DNA of 64,000 bases from a virus. The stretch is from positions 1-64,000 of IMG/VR virus record IMGVR_UViG_3300034104_001590; one strand, 5' to 3'. Made by a program: the position numbers and the translations under genes. Position 1 is the stretch's first letter. Each line of letters starts with the position of its first letter. Below are positions 23,016 to 58,010 of the stretch, in pieces. The notes below the pieces were generated by a model. The model worked only from the letters and a program-made list of their open reading frames with translations, was not told the DNA's origin and did not search any database.

Positions 23016-23029
23016 TAGTAAAATAATAA

Positions 23030-23037
23030 CAAATATA
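23030..23037 (-). promoter_or_regulatory. Promoter -7 element (TATATTTG), leftward
   Basis: On the minus strand this reads TATATTTG, 14 bases upstream of the ATG at 23015. It is arranged back to back with the plus-strand element at 23051-23058, so the two polymerase sites overlap and should compete. Confidence 0.6.
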
Positions 23038-23050
23038 CGATAATTATTAT

Positions 23051-23058
23051 TACATTTG
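23051..23058 (+). promoter_or_regulatory. Promoter -7 element (TACATTTG), rightward
   Basis: TACATTTG matches TAnnTTTG. The predicted transcription start (about 6 bases on) falls exactly at the base of the first hairpin of the leader that precedes the HNH gene. No clear upstream TTTG is seen. Confidence 0.55.
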
Positions 23059-23062
23059 TTTT

Positions 23063-23144
23063 TGTCGAGTGGTAGCGACATTTAAGAAATTTGAAAAATC
23101 CCTATAATGAAGAGACTACCACCTCGGATTTATAGGGTTTTTTA
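23063..23144 (+). promoter_or_regulatory. Leader A: 5' hairpin plus intrinsic terminator with complementary loops
   Basis: The 5' hairpin is TGTCG/CGACA (23063-23067 with 23076-23080), with loop AGTGGTAG. It is followed by an intrinsic terminator: stem CCCTATAA/TTATAGGG (23100-23107 with 23130-23137) and a run of six T. The terminator loop contains CTACCAC (23116-23122), which is complementary to seven bases of the first loop (23069-23075). The terminator ends just before the HNH start codon, so read-through must be controlled. The same design occurs at 33.28 and 50.51 kb with different sequences. Confidence 0.65.
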
Positions 23145-23146
23145 TT

Positions 23147-23698
23147 ATGGAAGAAATTTGGAAAGAAGTAATTGGATACGAAGGACTATATGAAGTATCT
23201 AATATGGGTAGAGTTAGAAGTGTTGACAGATATGTTAATTCTGGTGGATTAGGAGATAAAGATAGACTATCTCTCAAAAAAGGAAAGATATTAAATTGTA
23301 GCCCAACAAAAAGGGGATATACTAGAGTTAATCTATCAAGAGAATCAAAAATAAAACAAGAATATATACATAGATTAGTTGCTGTTGCATTTTTAAAGGA
23401 TATAAAAGGAAAAGAAAATGTTAATCATATAAATGGAATAAAGAAAGATAATAGAGCTTGTAATTTAGAATTTGTAAATCAAAGAGAAAATGTATTACAC
23501 GCTAAAATATATAATGTAAATAAAAATTGTCCATTTGTATCATATCTTAAAAAATATAATAGATACGAATCATCTATAATCATAAATGGAAAACCAAAGA
23601 AATTAGGTAGATTTAAAACAGAAGAAGAAGCATTTAATTCTTATGTTAAGGCATTAGAAGAGAATGGACTTGAAAATAAATACATTCTGCATAGATAG
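23147..23698 (+). CDS. HNH homing endonuclease with NUMOD4 domain
   Basis: This 183-residue protein has an N-terminal NUMOD4 motif (EEIWKEVIGYEGLYEVSNMG, residues 2-21). An HNH core follows (IHRLVAVAF, then VNHINGIKKDNRACNLEFV around residues 85-120). A C-terminal stretch resembles the DNA-binding AP2-type module found in such enzymes. These are selfish DNA-cutting genes. It stands alone on the plus strand between two minus-strand virion genes, with its own promoter and leader. The convergent stop is 2 bases from the neighbour's stop. This placement is typical of a freestanding homing gene. Confidence 0.85.
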   Translation: MEEIWKEVIGYEGLYEVSNMGRVRSVDRYVNSGGLGDKDRLSLKKGKILNCSPTKRGYTRVNLSRESKIKQEYIHRLVAVAFLKDIKGKENVNHINGIKKDNRACNLEFVNQRENVLHAKIYNVNKNCPFVSYLKKYNRYESSIIINGKPKKLGRFKTEEEAFNSYVKALEENGLENKYILHR

Positions 23699-23700
23699 CA

Positions 23701-33243: not shown

Positions 33244-33273
33244 TTTGGAATTTAAAAAACATTTCTAACTTTG
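33244..33273 (+). promoter_or_regulatory. Full Bacteroidota-type promoter (TTTG, 18 bp, TAACTTTG)
   Basis: TTTG at 33244-33247 and TAACTTTG at 33266-33273 are spaced by 18 bp, close to the TTTG/N19/TAnnTTTG consensus. It drives leader B and the three-gene exonuclease operon. Confidence 0.75.
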
Positions 33274-33277
33274 TAGA

Positions 33278-33361
33278 GCGATGGAAATGACACAAAAAAA
33301 ATTTATTGGTTAACAAAAATTAGCACCCCATCTTTTTTCATCGCACCAGGGGTGCTTTTTT
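33278..33361 (+). promoter_or_regulatory. Leader B: terminator whose loop pairs with the transcript 5' end
   Basis: An intrinsic terminator has stem AGCACCCC/GGGGTGCT (33322-33329 with 33349-33356) and then six T. Its 19-base loop contains TTTTCATCGC (33335-33344), which can pair over 10 positions, one of them G-U, with GCGATGGAAA (33278-33287) at the predicted start of the transcript. The first start codon of the operon lies 11 bases beyond the T-run, so this terminator must be bypassed for the operon to be expressed. Confidence 0.65.
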
Positions 33362-33373
33362 ATTTTGAGTAAT

Positions 33374-33655
33374 ATGGAACAGTTTAGAGTTGTTTGCGTA
33401 AACGACAAAGCTAAACCAACTGGATATGTTGGAGAGTGGCTTGAACAAGGTGAAGTCTACACGGTGATAGATGCTAAGTATCTTATGCGTCAAAGAATGA
33501 CCATTGGATACAAGCTAGCTGAGATAGATATGGATCCTAATTCTGAATATCAATACTTTTTAAGTAACCGATTCAGACCTTATACAGATGAAGACGCTAT
33601 GATGGAAGTGGCTCTTGAAGAATTACTTGAAGAAACTTATGCTGAAACGCTGTGA
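33374..33655 (+). CDS. Small protein of unknown function, first gene of exonuclease operon
   Basis: The start was set at ATG 33374 rather than an upstream TTG at 33365. The protein has 93 residues. The N-terminal half is beta-rich (FRVVCVNDKAKPTGYVGEWL, with a GEVYTVID strand) and the C-terminal tail is acidic and helical (EVALEELLEETYAE). The fold pattern suggests a small beta-barrel. Its TGA overlaps the GTG start of the exonuclease (GTGA), so the two are translationally coupled. Not recognised. Confidence 0.65.
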   Translation: MEQFRVVCVNDKAKPTGYVGEWLEQGEVYTVIDAKYLMRQRMTIGYKLAEIDMDPNSEYQYFLSNRFRPYTDEDAMMEVALEELLEETYAETL

Positions 33656-50496: not shown

Positions 50497-50504
50497 TATA
50501 TTTG
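50497..50504 (+). promoter_or_regulatory. Promoter -7 element (TATATTTG)
   Basis: TATATTTG matches TAnnTTTG in an A/T-rich setting. The predicted start, about 6 bases on, is at the base of the first hairpin of leader C. Confidence 0.6.
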
Positions 50505-50606
50505 CTGTGTCGAACCTCAACTTCGATTACATTTAAAGTTGTTTATATACTCTTATCATATATATAAACTACCCTAGTCAAGTTGAGGAAGTGGCTAGGG
50601 TTTTTT
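50505..50606 (+). promoter_or_regulatory. Leader C: 5' hairpin plus terminator with fully complementary loops
   Basis: The 5' hairpin is TCGAA/TTCGA (50510-50514 with 50522-50526) with the 7-base loop CCTCAAC. About 45 bases on is an intrinsic terminator with stem ACCCTAG/CTAGGGT (50571-50577 with 50595-50601), followed by T. The terminator's 17-base loop contains GTTGAGG (50582-50588), the exact complement of the whole first loop. A kissing interaction or an antiterminating rearrangement is possible. It may alternatively be a free ~100-nt RNA. Confidence 0.7.
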
Positions 50607-50874
50607 ATTCCCTTTAAAAACAACGGAAGTCGATACGTTAAAACGGAACTGAATCAAGGTGTGTTTATTTTATCTTAAATGATGTAGATGGGTTTTCTTA
50701 ACTTGTTACCCGACATCAGCCTAAAACGAAATTGAGAACTCAACGGAAGTAAGTATGGTGATGAATAAGTTATCTTTCCTATACTTGAGGGGGAGGGGGA
50801 GATAACTTGTTTGTTATCACCTTAACTCTATATCGAATCTAACAAAAGTAAGTTATTAATTAATCATTGATTAT
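50607..50874. other. Non-coding interval with repeats and a strong hairpin
   Basis: The 268 bases between leader C and the gene at 50875 have no credible frame. ACGGAA occurs three times (near 50625, 50653 and 50741), followed by hairpins ending near 50821. This looks like a long structured 5' untranslated region. Confidence 0.5.
50757..50821 (+). promoter_or_regulatory. Two-step hairpin with G-rich loop
   Basis: The inner stem AAGTTATCT/AGATAACTT (50767-50775 with 50800-50808) is perfect. An outer stem GGTGAT/ATCACC (50757-50762 with 50816-50821) extends it. The 24-base loop has two runs of five G and includes TTGAGG (50785-50790), which could also pair with the CCTCAA loop of leader C. Confidence 0.6.
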
Positions 50875-57557: not shown

Positions 57558-58010
57558 ATGACAAGAGAAGAAAGATGTCAATTAGCTATTAAAAGAGGAT
57601 TTAGCTACGATGCTCAAACTGGAGACATATTTAATAGATACGGCAAAAAATCAAAGCCAAACAAATCAAATGGATACCATGAAATTTGTATCACTGTAAA
57701 TAAAAAATCATTTAAAATTCAAGGCCATCAATTTGCTTGGTATTATGAATATAGAGATTGTGTAGCTGAATTAGATCATATTAATGGTTTAAGACACGAC
57801 AACAGAATTTGCAATCTAAGACCTGTAACTCACCAGCAAAATAGTTGGAATAGAGTAAATGCTAAAGGATACTATATGATTAAAGGTAGAGATAGATATA
57901 GGGCTGAAATAAAATTAAATAATAAAAAGATTTATTTAGGCTTTTATAAAACAGAACAAGAGGCAAGGAAAGCATATCTACAAGCAAAAGAAATTTATCA
58001 TAAAATATAA
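57558..58010 (+). CDS. HNH homing endonuclease with AP2-like domain
   Basis: This 150-residue protein has the HNH core GHQFAWYYEY, ELDHINGLRHDNRICNLRPVTHQQNSWNR (residues 54-100). Its C-terminal region, RYRAEIKLNNKKIYLGFYKTEQEARKAYLQA, matches the AP2-like DNA-binding module. It lies immediately after dnaB in the same direction, a typical place for homing genes. It differs from the enzyme at 23.1 kb in lacking the N-terminal NUMOD4 motif. Confidence 0.85.
   Translation: MTREERCQLAIKRGFSYDAQTGDIFNRYGKKSKPNKSNGYHEICITVNKKSFKIQGHQFAWYYEYRDCVAELDHINGLRHDNRICNLRPVTHQQNSWNRVNAKGYYMIKGRDRYRAEIKLNNKKIYLGFYKTEQEARKAYLQAKEIYHKI

Follow-up and report, generated by a model that had tools for sequence, protein, structure and literature searches.

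A predicted kissing-loop attenuator leader carried by a mobile HNH homing endonuclease gene of a phage

Purine and c-di-GMP-I riboswitches form a loop-loop contact in a 5' leader that also holds a terminator, with the aptamer separate from the terminator. In pT181-type plasmids and with the CI RNA of phage P4, antisense attenuation proceeds through kissing complexes. Attenuation by an antisense RNA through kissing complexes is also described for icsA and RnaG (PMC5394118). In the T4 group, the homing endonucleases I-TevI, I-TevII, I-TevIII, SegB and Aeh1 MobE are timed by RNA hairpins and by middle or late promoters (PMC2988022). The leader RNA putRNA of phage HK022 influences transcription in cis (PMC9378689).

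The leader analyzed here, which we call element A, lies in a stretch of 64,000 nucleotides (the window), part of a 64,128-base IMG/VR virus record with a G+C content of 33.5%. The promoters of the window are of the TAnnTTTG type, which are those used by Bacteroidetes. A preliminary description of this DNA had proposed that an HNH gene is preceded by its own promoter and by a kissing-loop terminator leader, and this arrangement can be read directly from the letters (Table 1). The predicted terminator has a G+C-bearing stem with a U tract at once after it, as intrinsic terminators do, and the ATG of the HNH gene at 23147 follows 9 nt beyond the stem. Each of the two loops is composed of 8 nt, namely one unpaired base and seven that are complementary to the opposite loop. 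The seven-base pairing that had been proposed with CTACCAC is exact, with seven Watson-Crick pairs, and the relatives put the match beyond chance. The predicted fold has a minimum free energy of -22.0 kcal/mol, compared to a mean of -12.7 for shuffled sequences (z = -3.15), and beats 198 of 200 shuffles. When scanned for a promoter, a 5' complement and a terminator, the window returned two places (element A and 50505-50601), and six shuffles returned none. Rfam 15 cmscan gave no match at the gathering threshold for the window and 17 further loci, with the best sub-threshold scores far under threshold.

Table 1. Features of the HNH cassette and of the two native leaders in the window
Feature	Position	Strand	Evidence
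Whole inserted cassette (promoter, leader and ORF) at the junction of two late genes	23017..23699	+	Empty and occupied junctions in relatives
Bacteroidetes-type -7 promoter element TACATTTG, drives the HNH cassette	23051..23058	+	Sequence
5'-terminal hairpin H1, TGTCG-AGTGGTAG-CGACA, 5-bp stem, 8-nt loop A+GTGGTAG	23063..23080	+	Sequence, folding; stem covaries in relatives
Kissing sequence 1, GTGGTAG	23069..23075	+	7-nt complement of 23116-23122; covaries in relatives
Linker, 19 nt, from H1 to terminator	23081-23099	+	Sequence
Intrinsic terminator, 8-bp outer stem, T6 tract; order CCCTATAA-TGAA-GAG-ACTACCAC-CTC-GGAT-TTATAGGG-TTTTTT	23100..23143	+	Sequence, folding
Terminator outer stem arms CCCTATAA and TTATAGGG; T6	23100-23107 and 23130-23137; 23138-23143	+	Sequence
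Internal loop TGAA / GGAT inside the terminator	23108-23111 / 23126-23129 (within 23108..23129)	+	
3-bp inner stem GAG/CTC and apical loop A+CTACCAC (ACTACCAC) inside the terminator	within 23108..23129	+	Inner stem covaries
Kissing sequence 2, CTACCAC, terminator apical loop	23116-23122	+	
Free-standing HNH homing-endonuclease-like gene, NUMOD4 + HNH_3, antisense to the late operon	23147..23698	+	Pfam NUMOD4 3.8e-15, HNH_3 3.2e-08
Native leader B, GCGATG / CATCGC (6 nt), upstream of the gene starting at 33374	33266..33362	+	Same architecture
Native leader C, CCTCAACT / AGTTGAGG (8 nt)	50497..50606	+	Same architecture

The loop-loop match is maintained while its sequence changes. The pair GTGGTAG/CTACCAC occurs in the window and in two other records (L035, L039), GTAGCAG/CTGCTAC in three (L012, L036, L120) and GTAGGAG/CTCCTAC in one (L059). 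In a MAFFT alignment of 26 leaders, all four helices, the kiss included, have changed on both sides. Such changes fill 118 cells, compared to 42 expected by shuffling (0 of 500 shuffles as high), and sliding controls stay far under the score. Since some rows of the alignment are out of register, this count is conservative. TGAA/GGAT is nearly invariant in the 26 leaders, most of the motif having been fixed by the retrieval pattern itself. When 37 tandem-GA leaders were parsed singly, with a parser that demanded a match of at least 6 nt, their own kiss measured 7.7 nt compared to 4.0 nt for swapped pairs (maximum 4.8 of 5000).

Element A and the two native leaders B and C share, in their predicted structure, one broad design. 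Among relatives, loci B and C are hypervariable in sequence and keep their self-complementarity: the own match is on average 6.95 nt compared to 4.2 nt when swapped in 20 parsed relatives of leader B, and 7.2 compared to 3.7 nt in 14 parsed relatives of leader C (0 of 20000 permutations in both cases). In some relatives of locus B the complementarity or the leader is lost, and in one relative (G008) a UGAA/GGAU leader occupies locus C. The preliminary description had mentioned two other leaders, which we take to be loci B and C, and had held that element A differs from them and is not a recent local copy. Both leaders exist and their sequences do differ; because the UGAA/GGAU module of element A is absent from both, element A is no copy of the window's own leaders. 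The non-coding stretch that follows leader C (50607-50870) is recognisable in several relatives (L164, L165, L177) and may be a structured RNA some 250 nt long; it had no Rfam match.

The gene behind element A is predicted to encode a homing endonuclease: both the NUMOD4 and the HNH_3 motif are present, and its cassette is present at the site in some relatives and absent in others. The window's junction is empty in seven relatives (L013, L014, L022, L037, L044, L049, L050) and occupied in two (L012, G006). Among 48 relatives of the window phage, collected via the capsid protein, the HNH-type leader was found in six records including the window, and in all six the HNH gene is directly behind it. 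The five besides the window thus carry an HNH cassette with the same leader, and their loop pairs covary. The cassettes occupy two junctions, one between a 256-aa late gene and a DUF5872-like gene (G000, G001, G006) and one upstream of a 1528-aa gene (G007, G008, G009). Within the window family the leader was found only upstream of HNH genes in these cassettes, and relatives without the HNH gene at the two junctions show a bare junction, without the leader either. A covariance model (R1) found no leader in 30 further relatives; R1 detects the UGAA/GGAU class only, and its empty result is compatible with leaders bearing other modules.

That the leader moves with the gene had been raised as a possibility. 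It is borne out by the joint presence and absence at two junctions in the window family and by the leaders of the same architecture before HNH genes of unrelated phages. Related HNH genes without the leader, which had been named as evidence against the idea, do exist in part: they occur in three relatives (G003, G010, G040), and most of 80 sampled HNH loci lack this class. In the three relatives the HNH gene is co-directional with its neighbours. The leader therefore accompanies self-promoted cassettes rather than HNH genes in general. Leader and ORF may in addition be exchanged by recombination, since the HNH gene of G008 is closest, by inspection, to those of G007 and G009, and its loop code GTAGCAG is that of G001 and G006. 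The window has a second HNH-like gene (57558-58010), which matches the first at 40% over 80 aa, is co-directional with its neighbours and has no kissing leader. The late-gene junction of the window's cassette holds other short insertions in L029/L030 (14382-14658) and in L035 (14376-14755), and may therefore be a general insertion site.

The same leader design, with many different pairs of matching sequences, is found in many phages with Bacteroidetes-type promoters. The UGAA/GGAU terminator pattern occurs in 68 viral stretches, about 58 of which are real leaders by inspection. In small phage contigs this leader is present about once each, directly before the replication operon, and the operons behind leaders encode initiator-like proteins, DUF6291 and PrimPol/DUF3987. 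In some contigs (L083, L086, L114, L004, L106) an HNH gene lies between leader and primase gene, which suggests that a homing gene may first have gained a leader by landing behind a native one. A second scan of public viral contigs asked for a loop-E-like module, an inner stem and a T tract and left the loop free. It returned 101 stretches and 65 non-redundant viral leaders, all 65 with an upstream match of 7 nt (8 nt in one), in 21 codes, compared to an average of 4.1 nt for swapped pairs. The kissing sequence is enclosed by a hairpin stem of at least 4 in 55 of the 65, and a TAnnTTTG-like motif lies at most 30 nt upstream of it in 56. Among the 59 leaders with a readable ORF behind them, 17 precede an HNH gene by profile; further genes are GIY-YIG with NUMOD3, DUF723, other HNH, BRO/KilAC antirepressor and replication initiators. 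A pattern beginning with TGATAAGAC was too narrow and gave no matches.

Starting from the proteins, we fetched the 80 HNH loci and found a promoter, a terminator and a match of at least 7 nt in 16 of them by script and in about 24 by hand, most of the 80 having another leader or none. The window's portal protein had no match in 15 contigs that carry HNH leaders of this kind or sister leaders, which points to a spread across unrelated phages, within the limit that several of these contigs are fragments. An origin from a host element was considered and rejected: the type-I pattern had no matches in 257 Gb of genomes from bacteria and archaea, and the loop-E pattern had two matches in bacterial genomes, whose loops match over only 3 nt, do not kiss and serve as negative controls. 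Nothing was found in the plasmids searched.

Other leaders were seen before HNH genes. One class, seen in L188, L195, L223, L214 and Polaribacter phage P12002L (L370, where it precedes the HNH gene at 601), has a conserved AATTA..(T)GCAAAAGGTT core enclosed by a long helix between the 5' end and a segment further on, with a U-rich stretch behind. It looks riboswitch-like, and none of the three loci scanned matched an Rfam family. In a further class (L187, L260, L234, L200, L225, L242, L250), the 5' end (for example TGAGGA, GTGTGG or ATAGGGA) is complementary to a segment within a terminator-like hairpin. In L206 and L216, the first 12 nt or so of the leader (TGCAATGTTAAA in L206) match, as a complement, part of a downstream hairpin.

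Among cultured phages, Flavobacterium columnare phage FCV-1.01 has a GTAGTGC/GCACTAC leader with an AGUA/GAAA module before an HNH gene, in a stretch that is nearly unchanged in 65 phage records. F. columnare phage FCL-2 matches both flanks of this stretch and has neither the leader nor the HNH gene. A DNA similarity search for cultured phages with the leader returned nothing real. Scans of phi38:1, Maribacter phage Panino and half of crAss001 gave no convincing leader, the single matches in phi38:1 and crAss001 being judged chance.

Element A is probably a cis-acting transcription attenuator that travels in a mobile cassette made of promoter, leader and HNH ORF. Its architecture, the covarying complementarity, the movement with HNH genes and the use by replication operons and other endonucleases are apparent at the level of sequence. 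The terminator sits between promoter and ORF, the position of an attenuator leader, which makes attenuation the natural reading. Transcription would begin at the 5' hairpin H1. An intrinsic terminator is predicted about 25 nt downstream, and its apical loop would form a 7-bp kiss with the loop of H1. A conserved non-canonical module is predicted between the kissing hairpin and the terminator stem, with tandem G.A (UGAN/NGAU) here and a loop-E-like AGUA/GAA in sister leaders. The default product would be a terminated RNA of about 80 nt, and read-through would yield the endonuclease mRNA. Since the kiss involves the loop of the terminator and not its stem, the two can coexist, and the kiss would shape or strengthen the terminator with no competition between them. 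Termination would be regulated, with a kiss that forms in cis and favours it. In HNH cassettes of the element A class the start codon lies about 9-13 nt from the stem, so that the hairpin may also hinder translation initiation. Antitermination by stem competition was rejected: the upstream segment of element A is complementary to either terminator arm over at most 3 nt, and no antiterminator competitor is therefore evident. Pairing of the linker (AAGG) with the 5' arm of the terminator (CCTT), seen in many replication-operon leaders, was discarded as well, as it is absent in element A and 280 of 5000 permutations scored as high.

For read-through to occur, the folded leader RNA or the host polymerase that is elongating it would have to change in the course of infection. 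The preliminary description had made expression dependent on a phage regulator, and this finds no support, since the same architecture serves unrelated phages and unrelated genes. Such a distribution points to a host factor or to an intrinsic property of the RNA; action through a phage-specific regulator seems less likely.

The conservation of the module while the kissing codes vary freely is what would be expected if a shape, and not a sequence, were recognised, and two alternative modules occupy the same position. Kissing complex and module could then form a binding site, riboswitch-like or for a Rop-like protein, where binding sets termination. Such a sensing leader is possible but rather unlikely: the genes behind the leaders share no pathway, and we see no ligand and no conserved single-stranded core beyond the module. 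A simpler proposal takes the element as a plain insulating terminator with a hairpin, the complementarity being a folding aid with no regulatory role. A terminator in a cassette that runs antisense to late genes would protect either side, but the element lies between a promoter and its own ORF and the 7-nt complement is kept in 65 of 65 leaders, which leaves insulation highly improbable.

The leader precedes whole operons, and the 5' end of its RNA folds while the terminator is still incomplete. It might thus resemble HK022 putRNA, an RNA-only precedent (PMC9378689), in that the kissing fold would let polymerase pass its own and later terminators. We regard this as improbable, as the kissing partner is inside the terminator, so that the fold can be completed only when the terminator itself forms, and as the leader is also found before single HNH genes, where no additional terminator is evident for polymerase to pass. 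The terminated RNA of about 80 nt could also act in trans, controlling copy number or immunity by pairing through its loops with nascent leaders of other genome copies, in the way of plasmid attenuators or the P4 CI RNA. Intramolecular pairing should win over such contacts, and single-gene HNH cassettes have no obvious need of copy control. This makes a role in trans very improbable, even though the leader stands before replication genes in many phages and its codes diversify among close relatives and differ between the leaders of one genome, as in specificity groups.

We see the balance as even on whether the leader represents a hitherto undescribed class of RNA switches that act in cis and are specific to phages. 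In this class a 5'-terminal hairpin would kiss the apical loop of the terminator itself over about 7 bp, beside an interchangeable 3D module. The class would form a shared regulatory currency that times replication operons and is carried by unrelated HNH, GIY-YIG and DUF723 homing endonucleases. Were this true, selfish genes would arrive already connected to host transcription in whichever phage of the host group they enter, and the leader would be a widespread RNA regulator that Rfam lacks. Ordinary similarity searches miss the leader because it is recognisable by architecture and not by sequence. A cassette that brings both promoter and attenuator suggests a route to the controlled expression of a homing endonuclease antisense among late genes. 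The kiss stays at about 7 bp while its sequence varies freely; the reason for this is a testable question, with a cultured phage pair at hand.

As in the T4 group, where endonucleases are free-standing or in introns, the gene has its own promoter and would be held back by an RNA structure just before the start codon (PMC2988022). In the T4 group it is the ribosome site of early read-through transcripts that the structure masks (PMC2988022), whereas element A has an intrinsic terminator between promoter and ORF, with a loop that would kiss a 5' hairpin. Its structure is on the transcript from the gene's own promoter and the stem ends 9 nt before the ATG, unlike in a T4-type translational hairpin. 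The hairpin timing of T4 endonucleases thus provides a rationale for element A, with a different mechanism. HK022 putRNA differs in suppressing pausing and termination downstream (PMC9378689). Within a subset of the open-access literature, a search for a 5' hairpin that kisses a terminator loop found nothing. To our knowledge, the description of HK022 put has no hairpin that pairs with a terminator loop, and element A is set apart from it by description. Antisense attenuation through kissing complexes is similar in that loop-loop pairing governs premature termination, often at replication genes, but it pairs two RNAs in trans, whereas element A has both loops in one leader and one of them is the terminator loop. 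Kissing-loop riboswitches differ in that their aptamer is apart from the terminator, and element A has no Rfam match. By its predicted mechanism, element A would be an attenuator-type leader of a new variety.
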